Assembly: GCF_017255295.1 (NCBI RefSeq)
Contig: NZ_JAFKDE010000007.1
Span: 124,001 to 188,000, forward strand
Length of the DNA: 64,000 bases
Direction of reading: 5' to 3'
Source of the DNA: Nitratireductor aquimarinus
GTDB taxonomy: Bacteria; Pseudomonadota; Alphaproteobacteria; Rhizobiales; Rhizobiaceae
The translations under genes and the position numbers were made by a program. Under the pieces are notes generated by a model that saw only the letters and a program-made list of their open reading frames with translations, had not been told where the DNA came from and did no database searches. Below are positions 667-19,209 of the stretch, one piece after another. Every line of letters begins with the position of its first letter. Positions within the stretch are counted from its first letter, which is position 1.

Positions 667-1278
667 CTACGGATGCCTGTTCGCCTGCAGCCAGAGCCGC
701 GTCATTTCCGCCGCCGATGTCGTGCCGAGCTTTGCGCCGATGGAAGCGCGATGGCTTTCCACCGTGCGTGGCGAAACGGCCATGGAAGCGGCAATCTCCT
801 TGGTGGTGAAGCCGCCGGCAATGCGCTCCAGAACCTCGCTTTCACGGCCCGTCAGGCTCGCCAGAAGATCCGCCGTTTCGGCGTGTTCGGCCGCTTCCCG
901 CTCAGAGCGGTCCAGCATGTCCTGCGCCTTCTGGATGGCGTCGATCAGATCCTGCTCATCGACGGGCTTGCTCAGAAAATCCACCGCGCCATTGCGGAAA
1001 GCCCGGCGGCAGGCCTCGATATCACCATGGCCGCTGATCACCACGGTCGGCCAGTCTATGCCCTGCGCGATCAGGCGCTCCTGAAGCTTCAGGCCCGAGA
1101 TCACGGGCATGCGAATGTCGAAGATCAGACAGCCGGGCGGCAGCTTGCCGAGCGCGGCCAGAAAACTCTCCGGGTCGGGAAACGATTTCACGTCGACGTC
1201 GACCGTGCTCAAAAGCAGCACCAGAGCGCGGCGCACGGCTTCGTCGTCATCCACCAGATAGACCGGCCTGCCACTCAT
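667..1278 (-). CDS. FixJ/NarL-type response regulator
   Basis: 203 aa. The N-terminal receiver domain has the acidic cluster DDD at 10-12, phospho-acceptor Asp54 in 'LIFDIRMP', and a C-terminal conserved Lys in 'LSKPVDEQDL'. A LuxR-type helix-turn-helix (about 142-185, 'LTGRESEVLERIAGG...TVESHRASI') follows. The architecture matches FixJ/TodT/StyR regulators, which activate transcription after phosphorylation. Its start overlaps the stop of the kinase gene by ATGA, so the two are translationally coupled and almost surely cognate. Likely targets are the adjacent TRAP transporter or the HbpS-like gene; that is inference from position. Confidence 0.93.
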   Translation of the reverse strand: MSGRPVYLVDDDEAVRRALVLLLSTVDVDVKSFPDPESFLAALGKLPPGCLIFDIRMPVISGLKLQERLIAQGIDWPTVVISGHGDIEACRRAFRNGAVDFLSKPVDEQDLIDAIQKAQDMLDRSEREAAEHAETADLLASLTGRESEVLERIAGGFTTKEIAASMAVSPRTVESHRASIGAKLGTTSAAEMTRLWLQANRHP

Positions 1279-2870
1279 GCCGAAACCCTCCCCTCATCGT
1301 GCTTGATCTCGTGCCGTTGGCTCGCCAGAGGGAGGCGCACCTGAAAGCGGGCGCCTCCTTGCGAGGGCAATAGCTCGATCTCGCCATTCATGCGCTCGAC
1401 GATGCGTTGCGAGAGCGAGAGGCCAAGCCCGGTGCCCTGCTCCTTGCCGGTCACGAAAGGCTCGAACACCTGCCCCGCCAGCGCTTCATCCACGCCCGGC
1501 CCATTGTCATACACGTCCAGAATGGCGAGCCCCGCCTCGCGGCGGCTTGTGACGCTCACCTGCCCGTCCTGCGTTTCTTCCAGCGCCTCAAAGGCGTTGC
1601 GCACGAGATTGAAAATCACCTGTTCGAGCTCCGTCCGGTCGGCGCGCACGGCCAGCGCCTCATCGGCAAGGTCCAGCTTCAGCTTCACCGAACGCTTGCG
1701 CGCCTCGGGCGCAAGGAGCGCCTCAACGCCGCCGATGGCCGCGTTCAGGTCGGTCATGCCGGTCTCACCGCGCGGCGGACGGATCCACTGGCGCAGATGC
1801 GAGAGAATGTCCGCGCCGCGCCGTGCCTGCGCGACAAGTTCGTCCAGCACGGACGCCACGGCCTGCGTATCGCCCTTGGCAAGCAGGCGGCGGCCCGCCT
1901 GCGCCTGTGTCAGAATGGCGGTGAGCGGCTGGGTCAGTTCATGGGCGATGCCGCTTGCCATCTCGCCCAGCGAATTGACCCGCGAGGCATGGGCCAGCCG
2001 CGTCTCGCGCGCGCTGAGCTTCGCTGCACGTTCCGCCTGCATGCGCCCGGCCCATTGCTGCCACAGCGCCAGACCGGCCAGGAACAGCACCGACATCACG
2101 ATCAGCGCCGGAACGATCTTCGACATGGGGAACAGCGCCGCCATGTGCTGGGTGACTGCCGTGCGCAGCACAAGCGGCTGCGAGGCGCTGCCCAGCGTTC
2201 TCTCGAAAGCGGGTGGCCCGACGATTTCATCGCCGATCAGAAGCGCGCCATCGGGAAAGACAAGCGACTGGCTTGCCGAAGCGGTCTGCCAAAAGTCGCG
2301 ATCACTATCCAGAAGTCCCTGCGCGTCGATCTCAAGACCCAGACCATAGATCGCCGCATCGCTGTTCGGGCTGCGCTTGACCAGAAGATAGTGCCCCGGC
2401 ACACCGCCGGGCATTGGACCCAGAACCAGCGACCCATCGGTTGCCTGAACCGCTGCGCGGATCGCCGCATCGACCGCCGGATCGGCTGAGGCGCGGGTCG
2501 TCACGCCTTTGCCGTCCTCATCCACGGGCACGAGATCGACAGCCTCAATGCGTGGATAGAACCGGCGGAGCGCATTGGCCACGTCGAGAAAGAGATCGAA
2601 CCCGCTTTCACCGCCGGCAAGCGCCACCGCCGAGAGCGCCGTCATATGCGCGTCGTGCTGGCCGGCCCGCTGCGAGGCAAGGCGATGCAGCGCCGCACTC
2701 TCATCATCGAGTTCCGAGAGCAGCCGCCAGCGCTCATTGGCGGCAATCGCGGCAATGGTTGCGAGCGCCAGCACGAACCACGCGGCGACAAACCAGACCG
2801 GCCGGCCGAAGCCCCGAAAGCCCCCATGGCCCCCAGGGCCCATGCGATTGTCGGAAGAATTCTGTTTCAT
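1275..2870 (-). CDS. Membrane sensor histidine kinase (DctB-like topology)
   Basis: 531 aa from the ATG at 2870; the open frame extends upstream to 3167 but that part overlaps the LysR gene and is not protein-like. TM1 (about 24-45) and TM2 (about 252-270) flank a roughly 200-residue periplasmic sensor region. The cytoplasmic part has an H-box 'GIAHELTQPL' with His310, an N-box 'LVRNAFEAL' and G-boxes 'DNGPGVDE' and 'GTGLGLSL', the layout of DctB/FixL-class kinases. Coupled by ATGA overlap to the FixJ-type regulator. With a TRAP dicarboxylate-type transporter 1.3 kb away, it may sense that transporter's substrate; heme via the neighbouring HbpS-like protein is an alternative. Confidence 0.92.
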   Translation of the reverse strand: MKQNSSDNRMGPGGHGGFRGFGRPVWFVAAWFVLALATIAAIAANERWRLLSELDDESAALHRLASQRAGQHDAHMTALSAVALAGGESGFDLFLDVANALRRFYPRIEAVDLVPVDEDGKGVTTRASADPAVDAAIRAAVQATDGSLVLGPMPGGVPGHYLLVKRSPNSDAAIYGLGLEIDAQGLLDSDRDFWQTASASQSLVFPDGALLIGDEIVGPPAFERTLGSASQPLVLRTAVTQHMAALFPMSKIVPALIVMSVLFLAGLALWQQWAGRMQAERAAKLSARETRLAHASRVNSLGEMASGIAHELTQPLTAILTQAQAGRRLLAKGDTQAVASVLDELVAQARRGADILSHLRQWIRPPRGETGMTDLNAAIGGVEALLAPEARKRSVKLKLDLADEALAVRADRTELEQVIFNLVRNAFEALEETQDGQVSVTSRREAGLAILDVYDNGPGVDEALAGQVFEPFVTGKEQGTGLGLSLSQRIVERMNGEIELLPSQGGARFQVRLPLASQRHEIKHDEGRVSA

Positions 2871-2907
2871 GCGCGCGATCTTGAGGAAGGGCGGGGCTTT
2901 TGCAAGC

Positions 2908-3819
2908 TCATTGTGCCGGAAACATCTCGGCCACGATGTCCGCCAGATGCTGCAGCGCCGCGCCGGCCCCGGCCTCACGCCACGCAAAACCGATCTCGAT
3001 TTCCGGCTGCACGCCGGCAAGCCGGAAATAGGCAACACCCGGTCGCACCATTCGCCGCATCGTGCTCGGCACGAAGGCGACGCCAAGCCCGCCGGAGACC
3101 AGATTGATGATGGTCTGCATCTGCATGGCCTGCTGCCCCGGAAGCGGCGCAGCGCCCCGCTCCGCATAATAGCGGGTCACGAGATCGTGCAGCACCGGCG
3201 CGCCATGCCGGGGAAAGAGAATGACCGGAAGGTCGCGCAGGGCTGCAAAGTCAAGCTTGCCGCCACGGGGCCGCACGCGACCGGAGATCACCCACTCCTC
3301 CGGCACGGCGACCACCAGCCTGTCCTTCTCCACCGGGCGGTATCGCAGGGGCGAATGCAGCGCGCCGCGCGGCGGGGTGATGACAATGCCCGCATCCAGA
3401 GTGCCGTCGAGCAATTCGGCGATCTGCACATCGCACGTCGCCTCGCTCAGAACCAGTTCCACCTCGGGAAACCGCGCCTTGAAGCGGCTGACCAGCTCCG
3501 GCAGGAAACTGTAGCTGACGAAACTGATGAAGGAGAGCCGCACCGTGCCGATTTCGCCGCGCGACAGACGCTGCGCCACCTGCGGCAAATCGCCGGCCTC
3601 CTGCAGCACACGCCGCGCATGCGGCAGCCACTCGCGCGCCACGGGCGTCAGCGCCACGCTACGCCTCGTGCGCTCGAACAGCGGCAGGCCGAGCTCCGCC
3701 TCCAGCGCCTGAATGCTCTGGCTGAGAGGTGGCTGGGTCATGCCGAGACGTTCTGCGGCACGACCGAAATGCAGTTCCTCGGCAACGCTGACAAAGTGCC
3801 GTATCTGGCGGATGTCCAT
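2908..3819 (-). CDS. LysR-family transcriptional regulator
   Basis: 303 aa, normal length. N-terminal winged HTH: 'MDIRQIRHFVSVAEELHFGR' then 'RLGMTQPPLSQSIQALE', followed by 'PLFERTRRSVALTPVA'. The rest is a two-lobed periplasmic-binding-protein-like effector domain. It diverges from the dctPQM TRAP genes at 4146, the usual layout for a LysR regulator of an adjacent transporter. The effector is unknown. Confidence 0.93.
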   Translation of the reverse strand: MDIRQIRHFVSVAEELHFGRAAERLGMTQPPLSQSIQALEAELGLPLFERTRRSVALTPVAREWLPHARRVLQEAGDLPQVAQRLSRGEIGTVRLSFISFVSYSFLPELVSRFKARFPEVELVLSEATCDVQIAELLDGTLDAGIVITPPRGALHSPLRYRPVEKDRLVVAVPEEWVISGRVRPRGGKLDFAALRDLPVILFPRHGAPVLHDLVTRYYAERGAAPLPGQQAMQMQTIINLVSGGLGVAFVPSTMRRMVRPGVAYFRLAGVQPEIEIGFAWREAGAGAALQHLADIVAEMFPAQ

Positions 3820-10244: not shown

Positions 10245-10949
10245 GTGCCCCACGCGACAAACACCCCACTGAAAGCCCTCCTGATCGGCGAAATCGCGCC
10301 GCTTGGAGAGAAGCAGGCGCCAAGCGGCATCAACAAGAAGCCCGTCGAAAGGGCTCTTTTCCTCAGCCACACCGGCTTCATCGGCGACAATCAGGCAGAC
10401 ACCAAACATCATGGCGGCCCCGATAAGGCCGTTCACCACTATCCCCGCGATCACTATGACGCCTGGCGGGAAGAGATCGGTGACAACACCCTTCTCGACA
10501 GCCCCGGCGCGTTTGGCGAAAATCTCTCAACCCTTGGCCTCAATGAAGAGACCGTGGCGCTGGGCGATGTGTTTCGCCTCGGCAACGCCATTCTTGAAGT
10601 ATCCCAGGGACGGCAGCCATGCTGGAAGCTGAACAGCCGCTTCGGCGTCAGGGACATGGCGCTCAGGGTACAGAAAAGCGGCCGCACCGGCTGGTATTAC
10701 CGGGTCTTGCAGGAAGGTCAGGTGGCGCCGGGCGACGCGCTTGAACGGATCGACCGCCCCCTGCCCGAATGGCCGCTGAAACGGCTCTGGCAGACGCTCT
10801 ACGTCAAGACGCTTGACCGCAGTGAGCTGGAAGAGATGGCGGCGCTGGAGAAGCTGCCCGATGGCTGGCGGCGCTATGCACAGCGACGCCTTGAATCCGG
10901 CAAGGTCGAGAGCTGGAACCGCCGCCTGCGGGGCGACAAAGCCGACTGA
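10245..10949 (+). CDS. yiiM: MOSC-domain protein, YiiM-like
   Basis: 234 aa, GTG start after an AGGAGG site. The MOSC core is recognisable: 'KHHGGPDKAVHHYPRDHYDAW', 'GAFGENLSTLGL', 'GDVFRLGNAILEVSQGRQPCWKL' with the conserved Cys that ligates the molybdenum cofactor, then a C-terminal 3-alpha domain. YiiM-type enzymes are molybdoenzymes that reduce N-hydroxylated bases such as 6-hydroxylaminopurine. Monocistronic by position. Confidence 0.88.
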   Translation: MPHATNTPLKALLIGEIAPLGEKQAPSGINKKPVERALFLSHTGFIGDNQADTKHHGGPDKAVHHYPRDHYDAWREEIGDNTLLDSPGAFGENLSTLGLNEETVALGDVFRLGNAILEVSQGRQPCWKLNSRFGVRDMALRVQKSGRTGWYYRVLQEGQVAPGDALERIDRPLPEWPLKRLWQTLYVKTLDRSELEEMAALEKLPDGWRRYAQRRLESGKVESWNRRLRGDKAD

Positions 10950-11038
10950 GGAACAGGGCCGACTGAAGAACACGAACACGCGCGCTCCGACAGCACGCGG
11001 GGCGCGCACTCAAGCCCGGGTGGTCATCTTCCAGAGTG

Positions 11039-11059
11039 GAGAGAGAGAGAGAGAGAGAG
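11039..11059. repeat. (GA)10 dinucleotide microsatellite
   Basis: Twenty-one bases of alternating GA touch the base that encodes the CCA end of the tRNA. On the tRNA strand it reads as a CT run directly after CCA. Such long dinucleotide tracts are uncommon in alphaproteobacterial genomes and prone to slippage. Confidence 0.95.
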
Positions 11060-11135
11060 TGGTGCCGCTTGTCAGACTCGAACTGACGACCTCCGCATTA
11101 CGAATGCGATGCTCTACCAACTGAGCTAAAGCGGC
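11060..11135 (-). tRNA. tRNA-Thr (anticodon CGU)
   Basis: Complete 76-nt cloverleaf on the minus strand with encoded CCA. The acceptor stem GCCGCTT pairs with AAGCGGC, discriminator A, then CCA at 11062-11060. The D-arm contains AGCTCAGTTGGTAGAGC, the anticodon stem is GCATT/AATGC-like around CGT, and the T-arm contains GTTCGAGTC. Anticodon CGU decodes the Thr codon ACG. Confidence 0.97.
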
Positions 11136-11190
11136 CCTTTCGCCATGGTCGGAACCCCGCCATGACCAGCTTGCTTCGCCATCCGCTCTG

Positions 11191-11260
11191 GACAATTGCG
11201 GCGCGAAGCACTTTCCCAGTGCACATACCCGCCTCTGCGAGCTTTCGCAACCCAATTGTC
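11191..11260. repeat. Imperfect 70-bp inverted repeat in the tRNA-Thr upstream gap
   Basis: GACAATTG (11191-11198) and CAATTGTC (11253-11260) are perfect complements, and the adjoining GCGAAGC and GCTTTCGC continue the pairing with bulges. An inner hairpin GCACT/AGTGC (11208-11222) sits at the centre. It could be a small palindromic repeat or a structured RNA; no gene is visible from 11140 to 11490. Confidence 0.5.
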
Positions 11261-11364
11261 GAGCTAGAACGCCGTTTGGAGAGGGACATTTTCGGTCCGC
11301 AATCACCAAGGCAGCAAGCGGCGTCCTGATAGCGGCAATCTCCCAGGAGATCAAGCGGAAATGG

Positions 11365-11500
11365 CACAATCAGAGCAACCTAAAAAAAGCCATGTAGATT
11401 TGATAGTTAACAAACAATAATTCAGTAAATCATTTTAAGTATAAATACAAATTACTTGATAAACAAATAGATATGATTTTTAATTTGCGCATTGGAGGAA
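11365..11500. other. AT-rich stretch before the orphan secreted protein
   Basis: This segment is far richer in A+T than its surroundings, with runs such as TTAACAAACAATAATTC. No ORF or RNA gene is recognisable in it. It probably holds the promoter of the small gene at 11507, and its composition suggests a different origin from the neighbouring DNA. Confidence 0.5.
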
Positions 11501-11506
11501 TATACT

Positions 11507-11803
11507 ATGAAAAATTTTGCACCAATTATAATTGCTGCAGCGGCGTTTCTGCCCGTGAATGCCCACGCCGACGCAAATGCGTATCAGTGCAGGACCAACA
11601 GTTACCTCACGCATGTGAGAACCGACACACCATGGCGTGCCCATGTGGTGACCTACATCCACCTGACCGACAGGAAAAAGTTCCCGTCAGGCGGCGCAAC
11701 CGTCAACAAGATCAGGTGTAGACTACACCCGAAGAGGACGCTGACCGAAAGCCGCAGACCTCCCGCGCAAATCCGCGGAAACGGCGGGGAGCACAGCCAG
11801 TAG
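11507..11803 (+). CDS. Small secreted protein of unknown function
   Basis: 98 aa from the ATG at 11507, chosen over an in-frame TTG at 11492 because a GGAGGA site (11494-11499) sits 7 nt upstream. A clear Sec signal peptide ends at 'PVNAHA'. The mature part is short, basic and has only two cysteines ('YQCRTN', 'KIRCRL'), which could form one disulfide. No family recognised. The first codons use AT-rich triplets, unlike the neighbours, and the gene lies after an AT-rich stretch. Confidence 0.6.
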   Translation: MKNFAPIIIAAAAFLPVNAHADANAYQCRTNSYLTHVRTDTPWRAHVVTYIHLTDRKKFPSGGATVNKIRCRLHPKRTLTESRRPPAQIRGNGGEHSQ

Positions 11804-11926
11804 AAAGTACCCGTGGCAGCGGCGTCCGGCCCCTTCTTTCACACGGCAGGCATGGACACCGCTGCTGCATTCGCTAAGTTGGCGATCATCACAATAGCCA
11901 CCGAAAATTCCAGTAGGCAGGTACCC

Positions 11927-12415
<489 letters not shown>

Positions 12416-12430
12416 GCGAGGAGAGCGACC

Positions 12431-13231
12431 ATGTATGACGTCAATTATCACCGCGCCGGCTCCCTCGAAGAAGCCCTCAAGCTGTTCAAGGCGGCGGAAG
12501 ACGGCAAGTTCATCGCCGGCGGCCAGACCCTCATCCCGGCCATGAAGACGCGGCTCGCCGCTCCGTCCGACCTCGTGGACCTGCGCCATATCGCCGATCT
12601 GAAGGCGATTTCCGTTTCCGGCAAGACCGTCACCATCGGTGCGGGCGTCACCCATGCCGAGGTCGCCGCCAGCGCTGACATAGCAGCCGCCTGCCCGGCG
12701 CTCTGCCATCTGGCCGGTCTCATCGGCGATCCGCAGGTGCGCCATATGGGCACGATTGGCGGCTCGCTCGCCAACAATGATCCGGCGGCAGACTACCCCG
12801 CCGCCATGCTGGCGCTTGCCGCCACCATCATCACCAGCACCCGCGAAATCGCCGCCGAAGACTTCTTCACCGGCCTGTTTGAGACGGCGCTGGAAGAAGA
12901 CGAGATCATCACCGCCGTGCGCTTCGACGCGCCGGAAAAGGCCGGCTACGCCAAGTTCCCGAACCCCGCTTCGCGCTATGCGATGGCCGGTGTCTTCGTT
13001 GCCGTGGATGGCGGCGCAGTCCGTGTGGCCGTAACGGGGGCCGGCGATGACGGCGTTTTCCGCAGCGCCGAACTCGAAGCCGCACTCGCCGCCGAGTTCA
13101 GCGCATCGGCGCTCGAGGCCGTGGCCGTCCCTGCGGACGATCTCATGACCGACATCCACGCATCGGCCGAATACCGCGCCGGCCTGGTCGTTGCCATGGC
13201 CAAGCGCGCCGTTGCAATGGCAACGAGCTGA
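12431..13231 (+). CDS. coxM: Aerobic CO dehydrogenase-type FAD-binding medium subunit
   Basis: 266 aa. Family motifs: 'FIAGGQTLIPAMKTRLAAPSDLVDL' (FAD pyrophosphate loop), 'TIGAGVTHAEV' and 'GDPQVRHMGTIGGSLANNDPAADYPAA' (second FAD loop); C-terminal CO-dehydrogenase flavoprotein domain. It accepts electrons from CoxS-type clusters. Normally S, M and L subunits are encoded together; here only S and M are present. Confidence 0.93.
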   Translation: MYDVNYHRAGSLEEALKLFKAAEDGKFIAGGQTLIPAMKTRLAAPSDLVDLRHIADLKAISVSGKTVTIGAGVTHAEVAASADIAAACPALCHLAGLIGDPQVRHMGTIGGSLANNDPAADYPAAMLALAATIITSTREIAAEDFFTGLFETALEEDEIITAVRFDAPEKAGYAKFPNPASRYAMAGVFVAVDGGAVRVAVTGAGDDGVFRSAELEAALAAEFSASALEAVAVPADDLMTDIHASAEYRAGLVVAMAKRAVAMATS

Positions 13232-13233
13232 TC

Positions 13234-13284
13234 CTCCAGCGCACGCGATAAAGCGCGGGCCTGTCCGCAGGCCCGCAGCTGGAG
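13234..13284. terminator. Nested hairpin between convergent genes
   Basis: A perfect 9-bp hairpin GCGGGCCTG (13255-13263)/CAGGCCCGC (13268-13276) with a 4-nt loop lies inside outer arms CTCCAGC (13234-13240)/GCTGGAG (13278-13284). It sits between the ends of coxM and the convergent hydrolase gene and probably serves as a bidirectional terminator. Confidence 0.6.
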
Positions 13285-13316
13285 CGCTCCCGCTTTTCCT
13301 GGATGTGCTCCAGGGC

Positions 13317-14969
13317 CTACTTCTTCAGCTTTTCCTTGAGACGCTCGATCTCCGCCGGCGACCAGCCTTCCGGCTGGGTCACGGCCACCCACGCATCGAT
13401 ATAATGCTGCGGAGCATAGAGATGCCCGTATCCGATGGGCGCCGTGGTCGCCATCGCCATGTCCAGCGCAAGTTGCAGGAAGGTGACGATCGGATACCAG
13501 CGCAGGTCCGGCGAAACGTCAGGCCCGCGCTCCCCCACCAGCCATGCCGGTCGCCGATACCAGGCGAGCGGATCGAAAAAGACGACCGGGTCGCTCGCAT
13601 ATTGCAGATAGACGATCCGCAGCGGACCCCACTTTGCGCCGGGAATGTCGAGCGAATTCTTCTGCGCCGTGAAGCGCACCACGGATCCATCCCCCAGACG
13701 CGGCAGCCAGGCCGGCGTGCCGGGGTTGCGGTCGCGGGTGAAATTGCTCCACAGGCGGCTGTTGAAGGGCGGCCCGGCCCACAGCGCCCCCTGGAAGGGA
13801 TCCGCCAGAATGTTGTAGATCTCGGTCGACTGCTCCGAACTCAGTGCGCCAAGGCTCAGACCGTAGAGATAAAGCTCCGGCCGGTCGTCTTTCGGCAGCG
13901 TGGTCCAGTGACCATAGACCTTGCGGAACAGCGCATGCGCGGCTTCCGCCCCGTAGCTCGGCTCGATCAGCAGCGAAAGCCAGCTCGTGAGGTAAGAATA
14001 TTGCTGCGCGACCATCACCGTGTCGCCGCCATGCAGATATTCCAGTGTCACGCTCGCTTCCGGGTCGATCCAGCCAGTGCCGGTGGGCGCCACCACCGCC
14101 ATGACCTTGCGCTCGAACGCGCCGATCCGCTTCAGCTCTTCCAGCGCCAGCTCGGCGCGCTCATCTGCAGTCTCCGCCGAACGCAGCCCCACGTAAACGC
14201 GCATCGGCTCCAGCGCCTCGCGACCGGTAAACGCAGCAATCGCTTCCCTGCTGTCACCGCCGACAACGAACTGGCGTCCGGTACGCCCCAGCGTGTCCCA
14301 TGGGATCAACGATCCCGGCCCGCCCGTGCGCAGCCCGCTTTCAGGCTGCTCGATACCGTCCTCAAACAGCGCATCGAGCTCCGCATAGGCGGAATCGGCA
14401 ACCCGCAGCGCATAGCGCAGCAGCACGCGGTCGACCAGCGATGCCAGCACGAGACCGACAATGACAATGCCGATCACATTGGCCACGCGGCGCGGCACAT
14501 AAGGCTTCAGCCGGCCTGAAATGAAGGTGAAAGCACGCCCGATGCCACGCCCCATCACGACAAATAGAAGGAACAGAACCAGCGCGATGCCGCCCACCTT
14601 GAAGGGATGCGCGGTATCAACCGGCTCAAGCTGCATCAGCGCACGAATGGAATTCTGCCATTCGGCCGCTTTCCAGAGGAAGAAGATGGCGACAGCCACG
14701 CACAGCGCGGCCATGGCGAATTTGCCATAAATGCGCGGACGGCGCGGCGGCTCCGGCAGTTCCAGATAACGCCACAGCCAGACGCAGAAAACGCCCAGCC
14801 CATAGCCAACCGCTGCCGAAACGCCAGACAGAACACCCTGCAGCAGAAAGTCCCGCGGCAGCAGGGTGGGCGTAAGCGATGCTGCGAAAAGCAGTGTTCC
14901 AAGGCAAAGCCCCAGAACGGAGAATGAATGCCAGACGCGCACGTCGCCCTGCTCCAAGGTATCGGTCAT
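13317..14969 (-). CDS. Membrane alpha/beta-hydrolase family protein (Abhydrolase_9-like)
   Basis: 550 aa. The N-terminus has four to five hydrophobic helices beginning 'LFAASLTPTLLPRDFLLQG', a pattern typical of this family. The C-terminal half is a hydrolase domain with nucleophile elbow 'LYGLSLGALSSEQ' (GxSxG) and later acidic and His residues ('WYPIVTFLQLALDMAMA', 'GYGHLYAP'). It is probably an inner-membrane hydrolase with its catalytic domain outside the membrane. The substrate is unknown. Confidence 0.8.
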   Translation of the reverse strand: MTDTLEQGDVRVWHSFSVLGLCLGTLLFAASLTPTLLPRDFLLQGVLSGVSAAVGYGLGVFCVWLWRYLELPEPPRRPRIYGKFAMAALCVAVAIFFLWKAAEWQNSIRALMQLEPVDTAHPFKVGGIALVLFLLFVVMGRGIGRAFTFISGRLKPYVPRRVANVIGIVIVGLVLASLVDRVLLRYALRVADSAYAELDALFEDGIEQPESGLRTGGPGSLIPWDTLGRTGRQFVVGGDSREAIAAFTGREALEPMRVYVGLRSAETADERAELALEELKRIGAFERKVMAVVAPTGTGWIDPEASVTLEYLHGGDTVMVAQQYSYLTSWLSLLIEPSYGAEAAHALFRKVYGHWTTLPKDDRPELYLYGLSLGALSSEQSTEIYNILADPFQGALWAGPPFNSRLWSNFTRDRNPGTPAWLPRLGDGSVVRFTAQKNSLDIPGAKWGPLRIVYLQYASDPVVFFDPLAWYRRPAWLVGERGPDVSPDLRWYPIVTFLQLALDMAMATTAPIGYGHLYAPQHYIDAWVAVTQPEGWSPAEIERLKEKLKK

Positions 14970-15082: not shown

Positions 15083-16078
15083 TCAGTCCAGCGCGTCGAC
15101 CAGACGGCCAGCACCCTGGCGGAACGGATCGATGGTCGGCAGCCCCATGCGGCTCTCGATTTCCTCGAGGCAGGCTTTCGCCTCCGCATCGTTGAGGGCA
15201 GCGGTGTTGACCGAGATGCCCACCACCTTGACGTCCGGATTGACCACGCGCGCGGTTTCCAGAGACAGGTCGCGCAGCGCCTCGAGCGTGGGCAGCTGAT
15301 AGTGCGGCAGGCCGCGCATGTGGGTGCGGGTCGGCTCGTGGCACAGCACCAGCGCGTCCGGCTGACCGCCATGGATCAGCGCCATCGTCACGCCGGAGAA
15401 GGAGGGATGGAACAGGCTGCCCTGCCCTTCGATCAGATCCCAGTGATCGGCGTCATTGTCAGGCGTGATGTGCTCCACGGAACCGGCCATGAAATCGGCA
15501 ACGACCGCGTCGAGCGGCACCCCGGAACCGGTGATCAGAATACCGGTCTGGCCGGTTGCGCGGAACGAGGCCTTCATCTCGCGCTTGTGCATCTCGCGCT
15601 CCATGGCGAGCGCGGTGTACATCTTGCCGACCGAACAGTCGGTGCCCACGGCCAGGCAGCGCTTGCCCGCACGCCTCTTGCCATCGGCAATCGGGTATTC
15701 TTCCTGAGGCACACGCACGTCATAAAGATGCGTGCCGGCCTTTTCGGCCGCCGCCACAAGGGCGGGCTGCGCCGTCAGGCGATTGTGCAGACCGGAGGCG
15801 ATGTCCATGCCCGCTTCGGCAGCTTCCACCAGCGTCGCGACCCAGCTCTGCGATATCACACCACCGCGGTTGGCCGCGCCCACAACCAGCGTCTGCGCAC
15901 CGGCTTCCCGGGCTTCCGCGATGGTCATGTCCTTGAGACCCAGATCAGCCTTGCACCCCTCAAGGCGCAACTGCCCCACGCAAAACTCGGGTCGCCAGTC
16001 CTTGATGCCTTGCGCGACCTTTGCGGTCAGCGCGTCCGGCGCATCTCCAAGAAACAGCAGATAGGGCGTTTTCAGCAT
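15083..16078 (-). CDS. dgcN: DUF1611 protein, DgcN-like putative D-glutamate N-acetyltransferase
   Basis: 331 aa. It has the DUF1611 layout: an N-terminal Rossmann-like domain ('TLVVGAANRGGVIS', 'GMDIASGLHNRL') and a C-terminal P-loop domain ('AVGTDCSVGKMYTALAM', 'FRATGQTGILITGSGVPLDAVVADF', 'EGQGSLFHPSFSGVTMALIHG'). Members studied in marine bacteria acetylate D-glutamate, usually beside the epimerase/oxidase gene dgcA. No dgcA is present here, so the function is assigned by family only. Confidence 0.75.
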   Translation of the reverse strand: MLKTPYLLFLGDAPDALTAKVAQGIKDWRPEFCVGQLRLEGCKADLGLKDMTIAEAREAGAQTLVVGAANRGGVISQSWVATLVEAAEAGMDIASGLHNRLTAQPALVAAAEKAGTHLYDVRVPQEEYPIADGKRRAGKRCLAVGTDCSVGKMYTALAMEREMHKREMKASFRATGQTGILITGSGVPLDAVVADFMAGSVEHITPDNDADHWDLIEGQGSLFHPSFSGVTMALIHGGQPDALVLCHEPTRTHMRGLPHYQLPTLEALRDLSLETARVVNPDVKVVGISVNTAALNDAEAKACLEEIESRMGLPTIDPFRQGAGRLVDALD

Positions 16079-16221
16079 CGGTGGGTCGCTCCCTTATAAT
16101 TGGTTTATCGGCTCATCAATGATGAAAGCCCCGCTTGTCAAGCTGTGGTTCGGCAACCAGAGCCCTCTGGATCAACCGCCGCCACAACGATTGAGCCAGA
16201 GCGCGCCGCACCTGAAAGCGC

Positions 16222-17400
16222 CTATGCCATCACTTCTTTCAGCAACTTCAACGCGTCTGCACAGCGTGTCGTCAGCGTGTCGAGTTCCTCATCCGTCAGT
16301 CCCGAATGAACCGATAATCGCACCAGGCAGTGGTTGCGCGGCGTCGCTGGCGGGCAGAAAACCGCGCCGAACACACCCGATCCCTGCAGTGCATCGCGCA
16401 TTTTCAGCGTGTCCGGCTCATTGCCGCTCTCAATCGCGATGATCTGCTCCGTGCCGCCGCCCACATCGAAGCCAAGCTCGTCCAGCCGCCAGCGCACGAT
16501 GTCCGACACCTCGCGCAGGCGCTCGCGTCGATCATCAGCCCTGCGGATCAGCGCCAGCGCTTCCAGGAACCAGACATACTCATGCTCCAGCAGTCCGGAG
16601 CTGAAGATCGCGGGGTTGGACTCCATGCGAAAATACTCCTTGAAGCGGCGTGAGCAGACAATCAGTCCGGCGCGGCCGGCAAACGTCTTGGCCAGAGAGG
16701 CCGTGCGAAAGTCGATCCGGTCTGCCAGTCCCAGCGCCACGGCAAGCCCCGCACCACCGGGACCGTGCGTGCCAAGCGAATGGGATTCATCGACAACGAG
16801 AACACAGCCCGTGCGCGTTGCGACATCCACGATTGCGGCCAGCGGGCAGAGGCTTCCATCCGTACTGTAAACCGTGTCGACCACCAGCACACCGGGCCCA
16901 TACCGCCGGATCAGGCGCTCGGCATGGTCCGGGCTGTTGTGGCGAAAGGGAATGCCCCGCGCGCCTGCTGCTTTCACCCCTTCCCAAAGGGACGCATGCG
17001 CATTCATGTCCAGATAGACCGGAACCGAAGGGCTGGCGATGGACTGAAGCAGCCCCACATTGGCGGTGAAGCCCGACTGGCAGATGATCGCCTCTTCGCC
17101 CTGCATGTAATCGGCGAACGCCGCCTCCAGCTGCTGCATCGGGCTGCCCTTCATGGTGAAGACGCTCGACATCAGCAGATCGGTCTTGCTGTTCAGAAGG
17201 GCCTCGGCCTGCGCTTCTCTCAGCGCCGGCTCGTTCTGGATGCAAAGATAATCATTGCTCATGAGCTGGAGGTCGCCGCTGCCCGGCTCACGCCCCCTCA
17301 GGAGATGGCCCCCGCTCCATAATCGTTCCACGCGCTGGATATGGAACGCGTCTTCGCGTTCACGCAGCTGTTCTTTGGGACACGCAGCGAGCTCGGCCAT
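16222..17400 (-). CDS. cqsA: CqsA-like alpha-hydroxyketone autoinducer synthase
   Basis: 392 aa from the ATG at 17400, which has a GGAG site nine bases upstream; an in-frame TTG at 17454 has none. A PLP-dependent alpha-oxoamine-synthase-fold enzyme: 'LMSNDYLCIQ', 'CQSGFTANVGLLQSI', 'MNAHASLWEGVKAAGA', 'YGPGVLVVDTVYSTDG', Asp204 in 'VVDESHSLGTHGPGGAG', PLP Lys238 in 'TASLAKTFAGRAG', and 'GVFGAVFCPPATPRNH'. From memory these blocks resemble Vibrio CqsA (389 aa) much more than KBL, BioF or HemA. CqsA makes the CAI-1 signal from acyl-CoA and SAM/aminobutyrate. No cqsS/lqsS-type sensor lies nearby. Confidence 0.85.
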   Translation of the reverse strand: MAELAACPKEQLREREDAFHIQRVERLWSGGHLLRGREPGSGDLQLMSNDYLCIQNEPALREAQAEALLNSKTDLLMSSVFTMKGSPMQQLEAAFADYMQGEEAIICQSGFTANVGLLQSIASPSVPVYLDMNAHASLWEGVKAAGARGIPFRHNSPDHAERLIRRYGPGVLVVDTVYSTDGSLCPLAAIVDVATRTGCVLVVDESHSLGTHGPGGAGLAVALGLADRIDFRTASLAKTFAGRAGLIVCSRRFKEYFRMESNPAIFSSGLLEHEYVWFLEALALIRRADDRRERLREVSDIVRWRLDELGFDVGGGTEQIIAIESGNEPDTLKMRDALQGSGVFGAVFCPPATPRNHCLVRLSVHSGLTDEELDTLTTRCADALKLLKEVMA

Positions 17401-17460
17401 AAGCAAATTCTCCAAAACAGTTTCGCGAGCCCCGGTCGCGCCATGAAATCGCAACGCCGT

Positions 17461-17640
17461 GCAGCACCCCCCATTCTGAAAGGCTTATAAGCAACAATAT
17501 TAGGGCTTCACCTACAAAAACAGTATCAGCATATGTATATGACGAAGGGATTTCAATTCTGAATAAAATAGAATTGTAACCGACGCTTTACATAAATTCT
17601 CTACTTATACGCGCAGCATTAATACAATCATTAAGATAAA
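17461..17640. other. AT-rich intergenic region upstream of cqsA
   Basis: Roughly 180 bp between the cqsA-like gene and the TRAP terminator. It is notably AT-rich and has several hexamers resembling -10 boxes (for example TATATG, TATTAG). It likely holds the cqsA promoter, but no operator could be assigned. Confidence 0.4.
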
Positions 17641-17671
17641 TAAAAGCAGATATTCGCGTCAGAATATCTGC
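17641..17671 (-). terminator. Intrinsic terminator of the hut-TRAP operon
   Basis: On the minus strand, perfect 10-bp arms GCAGATATTC and GAATATCTGC (plus-strand 17646-17655 and 17662-17671) with a 6-nt loop are followed by TTTTATTT. The upstream arm overlaps the last codons of dctM, so the stop codon lies in the hairpin loop. Confidence 0.85.
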
Positions 17672-19209
17672 GCCGGAAGCCATGTGGAAATCGACGGCAG
17701 AAGCCAGATAACGCCCATGCCCACGAGCTGCAGAATGATGAAGGGAATGACGCCGCGATAGATCTGTCCCGTCGTGATTTCCTTTGGCGCAGCCGCGCGC
17801 AGATAGAACAGCGAGAACCCGAAGGGCGGCGTCAGGAATGACGTCTGCAGGTTGATCGCGATCAGGATCGCGAGCCAGAGCGGGTCATGTCCCATCAGGA
17901 TCAGAATGGGAGCGACCAGTGGCAGGACGATCACCGAGATTTCCACGAAATCGAGGAAAAAGCCGAGCACGAAGATCATCGCCATCACAAAGATGAGCGC
18001 CCCCTGCGGACCGCCGGGCATGGAGTGCAGGATGTCCTCAACCCGCGCATCACCACCCAGTCCACGGAACACGAGCGAGAACACGCTGGCCGTGAGAATG
18101 GTGGCGAAGATCATTGCCGTCACCGTCATCGTGTTGGTGACAATCGGCGTGAGAATGCCGCGCTGGCGCGCCTTGTCGATGGAAATGACGATGGCGAGGA
18201 CGCCGAGCGCCAGAAGCCCGGTTGTCAGCCCCGCGATGAGCCATTCGAAGAGGCCCACATCGCTGCGCTGCAGACGCACCGGAAAGATACCGGCCAGCAC
18301 CGCGACAGCACCCAGCGCCGCCGCGCCCAGAACGATCAGACGGCCATTTCCTTCGCTGCGCACACCGGCGAGTAGCAATGCGCCAATGGCGCCCACGCTT
18401 GCCGCCTCGCTTGGCGTTGCAATGCCGCCGAGGATGGAGCCCAGAACGGCAACGATGAGCAGAACCGGCGGCAGAACGGCGCGCTGCACCTCCTGCCTGC
18501 TCGGCCGGTCGCCGACCGCAACCAGCGCCGGAGCGCTGTCCGGCTTCAGGGCTGCCCGCGTCATCAGGTAGGCGATGTAGACCGCCACAAGCGTCAGGCC
18601 CGGCAGAAGCGCTGCGGCGAAAACCTGACCGACGGAGATCGTCTCGATGGTGAATTTGCCCTGCTCATACTGCGCCTGCTGATAGGCGGTCGACATCACG
18701 TCGGACAGGATGATGAGCAGCGTCGAGGGCGGAATGATCTGGCCCAGCGTACCGGAGGTGCAAACCACGCCGGAAGCAAGCTTCGGATCATAGCCGTTGC
18801 GCACCATGGTCGGCAGCGCGATCAGGCCCATCGCCACCACGGTTGCGCCCACAATGCCGGTCGAGGCCGCCAGAAGCGCGCCGACCAGCACGACGGAAAC
18901 CCCGAGACCGCCGCGTATGCCGCCGAAGAGACGGCCCATCGTCTCCAGAAGCTCTTCCGCGATGCGGCTCTTTTCCAGCACCACGCCCATGAAAACGAAC
19001 AGCGGAATGGCGATCAGAACCTCATTGGTGAGGGTTCCGAAAACCCGCTGCCCGAGCGCGCCCAGAAGCCCGACATCGAACTGGCCTGTCATCCAGCCAA
19101 GAAAGGCGAACAGCGCAGCCGTTCCCGCCAGCATGAAGGAAACGGGATAGCCGATCAGAATGGCGACGATCAGCGCCGCAAACATGAGGATGTCGAGCGG
19201 TAAGGTCAT
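17659..19209 (-). CDS. dctM: TRAP transporter large permease of the hut operon
   Basis: 516 aa, longer than the ordinary 430-aa DctM, as is usual for the larger subclass with extra central helices. Signatures: 'IGYPVSFMLAGTAALFAFLGW', 'LIAIPLFVFMGVVLEKS', 'ASTGIVGATVVAMGLIALPTM', 'TSGTLGQIIPPSTLLIILSDVM', 'GFFLDFVEISVIVLPLVAP', 'NLQTSFLTPPFGFSLFYLR'. Its ATG overlaps the dctQ stop (ATGA). Last gene of the hut-TRAP operon. Confidence 0.94.
   Translation of the reverse strand: MTLPLDILMFAALIVAILIGYPVSFMLAGTAALFAFLGWMTGQFDVGLLGALGQRVFGTLTNEVLIAIPLFVFMGVVLEKSRIAEELLETMGRLFGGIRGGLGVSVVLVGALLAASTGIVGATVVAMGLIALPTMVRNGYDPKLASGVVCTSGTLGQIIPPSTLLIILSDVMSTAYQQAQYEQGKFTIETISVGQVFAAALLPGLTLVAVYIAYLMTRAALKPDSAPALVAVGDRPSRQEVQRAVLPPVLLIVAVLGSILGGIATPSEAASVGAIGALLLAGVRSEGNGRLIVLGAAALGAVAVLAGIFPVRLQRSDVGLFEWLIAGLTTGLLALGVLAIVISIDKARQRGILTPIVTNTMTVTAMIFATILTASVFSLVFRGLGGDARVEDILHSMPGGPQGALIFVMAMIFVLGFFLDFVEISVIVLPLVAPILILMGHDPLWLAILIAINLQTSFLTPPFGFSLFYLRAAAPKEITTGQIYRGVIPFIILQLVGMGVIWLLPSISTWLPAQIF

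Follow-up and report, generated by a model that had tools for sequence, protein, structure and literature searches.

Two Nitratireductor genomes carry a conserved gene for an α-hydroxyketone (AHK) autoinducer synthase which, judged from sequence, was probably acquired horizontally, is nearest to the synthases of Burkholderiaceae and is accompanied by no recognisable receptor. Taken as a whole, the best explanation, which we hold with moderate confidence, is a working synthase that was acquired from another lineage and kept by selection, in a producer without a canonical receiver. Its family membership, residues, insert site, selection and lack of a recognisable sensor were computed; the transfer and its direction, the product, expression, release and target are what we infer. 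The window analyzed here is a 64-kb stretch of DNA from Nitratireductor aquimarinus, whose genome comprises 4.57 Mb in 28 contigs and is 99.99% complete.

The first-pass annotation had described a gene of 392 amino acids at positions 16222–17400. An open reading frame check of the window found a full-length frame of this size spanning exactly these positions, and placed it on the minus strand with its start at 17400. The gene and its surroundings contain the following features:

15083..16078, minus strand: dgcN (DUF1611), right flank of the insert (family model, congener comparison)
16177..17658, no strand assigned: segment missing from congeners that lack the gene (only cqsA with its AT-rich leader), approximate extent (comparison with congeners)
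16222..17400, minus strand: cqsA/lqsA-type AHK autoinducer synthase, 392 aa (P0001), PLP lysine K238 (family model, structure match, residues, tree)
17410..17413, minus strand: putative ribosome-binding site GGAG, nine bases upstream of the ATG at 17400 (by eye; also in the second carrier gene, L005)
17528..17556, minus strand: putative σ70-like promoter TTGAAA-17-TATGCT in the AT-rich leader (consensus scan, 1 found against 0.7 expected in shuffles; weak alone)
17646..17671, minus strand: terminator-like hairpin and T-run where the DctM gene ends, upstream of cqsA (2 found against 1.6 expected; weak)
17659..19209, minus strand: TRAP transporter DctM, left flank of the insert (congener comparison)

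The window protein scores 517.7 bits against the NCBIfam model NF005526 (alpha-hydroxyketone-type quorum-sensing autoinducer synthase equivalog) and thereby passes its cut-off of 428. Its best match among solved structures is CqsA of V. cholerae, the CAI-1 synthase (E 8e-97, residues 29–384), with serine palmitoyltransferase in second place (E 3e-37). CqsA, BioF, KBL and HemA all belong to one superfamily, and an ordinary paralogue could in principle have been taken for CqsA, but this reading has next to no probability. The protein remains far below the cut-offs of the models for BioF (8-amino-7-oxononanoate synthase; 221.8 bits, cut-off 426), KBL (173.9 bits, cut-off 460), HemA (5-aminolevulinate synthase, ALAS; 147.1 bits, cut-off 338) and serine palmitoyltransferase (SPT; 193.1 bits, cut-off 500). 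A profile search of the genome returned one AHK-type synthase and three weaker superfamily matches: a separate KBL (600.8 bits, cut-off 460), a separate HemA (568.4 bits, cut-off 338.55) and a BioF-like protein (179.7 bits, below the cut-off of 426). In a tree of 42 CqsA-type rows and these three paralogues, which have long branches, the CqsA set is split from the paralogues at 98/98 and includes the window protein; the root serves for drawing only. The tree contains no row named LqsA or JqsA and leaves out L012 (a 105-residue match), L061, H4–H7 and L085 (same replicon as G940).

Conservation of individual residues agrees with this placement. The PLP lysine of CqsA, K236 according to the available part of PMC3376566, corresponds to K238 of the window protein. 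For the acyl pocket, the portion of PMC3285556 at hand lists H30, V32, F79, F257, I263, F264, C346, P348 and A349 in V. cholerae CqsA. With this numbering carried over by the structure-match alignment, the window protein has H32, L34, F81, M259, I265, F266, C349, P351 and A352, that is, seven of nine identical residues and two changes (V32 to L34 and F257 to M259). The first-pass annotation had singled out the residues lining the CqsA pockets as a check, and those of the acyl pocket are thus largely retained. Among 59 positions that are near-invariant in CqsA (conserved in 95% or more of the remaining 40 CqsA rows), 58 are kept, V229 to I being the sole departure, as are all nine CqsA-specific positions (near-invariant and shared by no paralogue row). 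The protein therefore is a genuine member of the CqsA/LqsA-type AHK synthase family by model score, structure match, residues and tree, in agreement with its original description as CqsA-like rather than KBL, BioF or HemA.

The two pocket changes raise the question of a changed role, in which the enzyme would supply an α-aminoketone for metabolism (e.g., a pyrazine or lipid precursor), using another amino acid or acyl-CoA. Such a role would also suit a stand-alone locus without a recognised sensor. We nevertheless consider it improbable, given that 9/9 CqsA-specific positions are kept, that pocket position 259 varies across the family (M in 5 of 42 rows, the window included) and that the neighbouring genes (TRAP transporter, urocanase, DgcN, hydrolase) form no obvious biosynthetic cluster.

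The closest relative of the window gene is L005 (87% identity; 100/100 in the tree), found in G682, an uncultured Nitratireductor metagenome bin. This pair belongs to a clade of nine rows (100/98) together with Cupriavidus, Ralstonia, two genomes of one family and G1192. Eight other rows from the order make up a separate clade without the window gene (100/99), a third clade contains nine other class-level rows (97/99), and the window gene groups with neither of these alphaproteobacterial sets. Its closest relatives outside Nitratireductor are the Cupriavidus/Ralstonia proteins L006–L008 and L087 and the G1192 protein L079, at about 53–57% identity. Since the gene lies outside both alphaproteobacterial sets, its placement is most naturally read as horizontal acquisition from a Burkholderiaceae-like donor, although both the transfer and its direction are what we infer. 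Base composition gives no hint of a transfer, the GC content (0.62) and GC3 (0.75) of cqsA being near those of the neighbouring genes. A single gain followed by losses and a later exchange are indistinguishable, because the window genome, G682 and G678 are mutually unresolved in a tree from two flanking genes.

The synthase is present in two of the ten Nitratireductor genomes examined, a sample of a genus for which NCBI lists further species. In a family-level sample, a single genome out of 297 drawn has it, namely the window's own. These counts, like those for higher ranks below, refer to genomes drawn, evenly from larger groups, with at most 4–5 candidates per genome scored in the NF005526 searches and with a contig scan for related genes that detects close relatives only. 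In seven of the eight non-carrier congeners the site is empty, with dctM and dgcN as neighbours about 120–163 bases apart. The exception is G136, where dgcN is immediately preceded by the end of a urocanase-like frame and the piece examined yielded no TRAP genes. Both carriers have the same TRAP-dgcN site occupied by an insert of about 1.5 kb that contains only cqsA and its AT-rich leader. The first-pass annotation was thus right in describing the synthase as standing alone, a single-gene insert without a sensor cassette in both carriers, and in placing it beside a DUF1611 gene, which passes NCBIfam NF041892 (N-acetyltransferase DgcN; 563.5 bits, cut-off 480) and is now named DgcN. Mobile-element ends were looked for as 9-mers common to the two insert ends (110 and 140 bases), and none occurred in either direct or inverted orientation. 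In G678, an 86%-complete congener genome, dgcN is split with an internal stop (L097, L098; G678:C206:41667-42658).

The leader (17401–17658) extends from the DctM stop codon to the cqsA start and has a GC content of 0.40, compared with 0.63 for the window. In an alignment of both carriers, inspected by eye, the L005 leader shows TTGAAA-17-TATAGT at the place matching the putative promoter. Of the AT-rich promoter region proposed earlier, the AT-richness is clear, while the promoter-like pair is common to both carriers but near chance by consensus scan. Transcription of cqsA probably starts at a promoter of its own.

Between the two carriers, cqsA shows a dN of 0.072 and a dS of 1.09; the dN/dS of 0.066 is rough, as a dS of about 1 is near saturation. 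The dgcN and hydrolase genes have a similar dS, and the corresponding dN/dS values of the flanking genes are 0.041 (dgcN), 0.037 (dctM) and 0.119 (hydrolase gene). Protein changes are evenly split between the carrier lineages (e.g., 12 versus 10 with L079 as outgroup). The branch of the window protein appears longer in the tree (0.12 versus 0.05), a difference unconfirmed by relative-rate counts against seven outgroup rows. The patchy occurrence within the genus might indicate a decaying relic of a past transfer, but the intact frame, the low dN/dS, the conserved catalytic residues and the lack of a relaxed rate make this highly improbable. As the substitution pattern indicates, the synthase is maintained as a protein under purifying selection in the two carriers.

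No CqsS/LqsS-like gene was found in the 64-kb window, in agreement with the first-pass annotation: the sensor queries match a single histidine kinase (1275–3167, minus strand), and only in its kinase part. The genome-wide search suggested there extends this orphan status to the whole genome. A six-row profile of full-length sensors gave 23 matches in the window's genome, none of which starts before profile position 197 and all of which lie in the kinase part. A 22-row profile of the CqsS/LqsS sensing domain matched in none of the ten Nitratireductor genomes, including the window's own (G000), at E values up to 10. The same profile detected the sensors of the positive controls G480 (9e-57), G683 (2e-53) and G384 (1e-51), which are not among its rows, G480 sharing its genus with two of them. 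With filters off, its best E value against 20 own-genome stretches holding all 23 kinase matches was 1.5. An LqsR profile likewise revealed no LqsR in this genome, the best match (2.9e-8) covering only profile positions 105–180, a part of the receiver domain; the controls gave 7.9e-128 (G480, itself a profile row) and 5.2e-121 (G325, same genus). LqsR is present in the lqs and jqs clusters and absent from V. cholerae. A search for LuxI-type synthases, whose 14 control genomes gave no match either, returned none in the window's genome. As far as homology searches go, the window's genome is without a recognisable CqsS/LqsS receptor. LuxI-type AHL synthases occur in four of the ten genus genomes (L120–L123; G682:C69, G678:C158, G136:C12 and G255:C53), among them the second cqsA carrier.

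A complete system whose sensor was missed, through an assembly gap or extreme divergence, appears very unlikely to us. The genome is split into 28 contigs, and in the Tistrella-type genome G940 a sensing domain is located about 35 kb from the synthase, which would both be compatible with a missed sensor. However, the completeness is 99.99, the second carrier also lacks the sensor (0/10 genus genomes), and the sensing-domain profile recovers sensors absent from its rows.

Carriers outside the genus show how such synthases are usually arranged. At the phylum level, 15 of 15 inspected carriers (16 other carriers drawn) have a CqsS/LqsS-type sensor in the synthase gene cluster, either adjoining the synthase or with lqsR alone in between; the inspection did not include G1249 (L061, a partial match) and the plasmid matches H4–H7. 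The same holds for L006–L011 (6/6) and for two loci of the plasmid collection, L086 and L087. The order-level sample of 397 genomes contained eight other carriers, seven of them over the family cut-off, and synthase, sensor and LqsR occur together in all eight. AHK synthases in Hyphomicrobiales, an order for which the first-pass annotation suggested signaling of this kind, are accordingly not new: in addition to these eight cassettes, Rhodomicrobium vannielii (Hyphomicrobiales) is included in a CqsA tree published in 2013 (PMC3566124, available part). A cqsA gene in Nitratireductor was not reported in the openly licensed PMC literature that we searched.

The class-level carriers are mixed, with nine synthases in seven other genomes and a canonical sensor beside only one of them (L068). 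In two genera, CqsA-type genes (L063:9098-10480, L067:9597-10994 and L069:9708-11123) lie divergently to histidine kinases that share a conserved hydrophobic N-terminal domain unlike that of CqsS/LqsS and are candidate alternative AHK receptors. The L067 kinase aligns weakly (23.5%) with an LqsS-like sensor, and the sensing-domain profile matches nothing in its genome. G683 harbors two AHK-type synthases, L068 beside the canonical sensor and L063 beside the other kinase type. Three Tistrella-type synthases have no adjacent LqsS-like sensor (loci L064–L066 and L085); on the replicon of the G940 synthase, a 315-aa frame contains the CqsS-like sensing domain (L111, G940:C4:323634-324131, minus strand) and is too short for a full kinase. 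Two tandem synthases in G961 have no canonical sensor beside them. At L062, an MMPL-family transporter of 1191 aa (10939-14514, plus strand) has a CqsA-type domain (Aminotran_1_2, residues 823–1157) as a C-terminal fusion. It lies directly downstream of a second CqsA-type gene (L062:9524-10939) that is itself preceded by an AcrB-type gene, an arrangement that possibly couples synthesis to export. The window synthase thus is not unique in lacking a canonical sensor neighbor, but within the nine-row clade this situation is confined to the two Nitratireductor genes.

The receptor might also have been replaced, so that the cell makes an AHK and responds to it by way of a receiver with no sequence relationship to CqsS/LqsS, for instance a histidine kinase or adenylate cyclase equipped with another membrane sensing domain. 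We regard this as unlikely, though the kinases next to L063, L067 and L069 illustrate such a pairing and the 23 LqsS-like matches in the window's genome, all in the kinase part, would offer material for it. The available part of PMC4821796 describes 6TM anchors of adenylate cyclases that resemble CqsS and mentions alphaproteobacterial CqsS-type 6TM domains. On the other hand, the N-terminal domain of the L063/L067/L069 kinases has no significant match in the 20 stretches holding all 23 own kinase matches (best E 0.052), and in neither carrier does a histidine kinase resembling LqsS lie beside cqsA.

Returning to our preferred explanation, a producer without a canonical receiver, we propose the following sequence of events. 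A lineage close to the Burkholderiaceae synthases would have been the source of a horizontal transfer, and in both Nitratireductor carriers the gene now stands alone between the TRAP gene and dgcN, with no sensor cassette. As a CqsA/LqsA-type PLP enzyme, the encoded protein is expected to link an amino-acid-type substrate, which in Vibrio is S-adenosylmethionine, with a medium-chain acyl-CoA, and the resulting α-aminoketone or enaminone would become an α-hydroxyketone. Purifying selection keeps the synthase despite the lack of a recognisable CqsS/LqsS, LqsR or LuxI in the window's genome, and it is this conservation that leads us to a producer without a canonical receiver. The molecule may be released to act on neighbors, or may be used by the cell without the need for CqsS/LqsS. 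More specifically, we tentatively suggest, while rating it below an even chance, that selection has retained the synthase, now separated from its receptor, as a one-way emitter, whose AHKs would act on other bacteria or eukaryotes or would be perceived by a class of receptors not previously linked to AHKs.

AHK synthases are described as always linked to, and located beside, their sensor in the available part of PMC3566124, and a conserved synthase without a recognisable sensor genome-wide is an exception. Nitratireductor lends itself to a clean test of whether selection can favor AHKs in the absence of their usual receiver, and may lead to new AHK receptors. With the single-gene insert and the mapped empty site, carrier and non-carrier species can be compared in a straightforward way.

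Compared with known systems, the window protein resembles V. cholerae CqsA (PDB 2wk8, 3hqt) in length, core, PLP lysine and, for the pocket residues published in the part available, 7/9 acyl-pocket positions. In Vibrio, cqsA adjoins cqsS (V. campbellii, L086), whereas no sensor was found for the Nitratireductor window gene. JqsA of Janthinobacterium HH01 is a member of the same synthase family and is 59% identical to a Cupriavidus necator homologue, but jqsA adjoins jqsS and jqsR, as stated in the accessible text of PMC3566124. The cassettes of the order (L026–L033) share enzyme family and order with the window gene, yet their synthases are only 37–48% identical to it, form a separate clade and are accompanied by sensor and LqsR in 8/8 cases. 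Cupriavidus/Ralstonia (L006–L008, L087) and G1192 (L079) share the clade of the window protein, but all of them have an LqsS/CqsS-type sensor beside the synthase.
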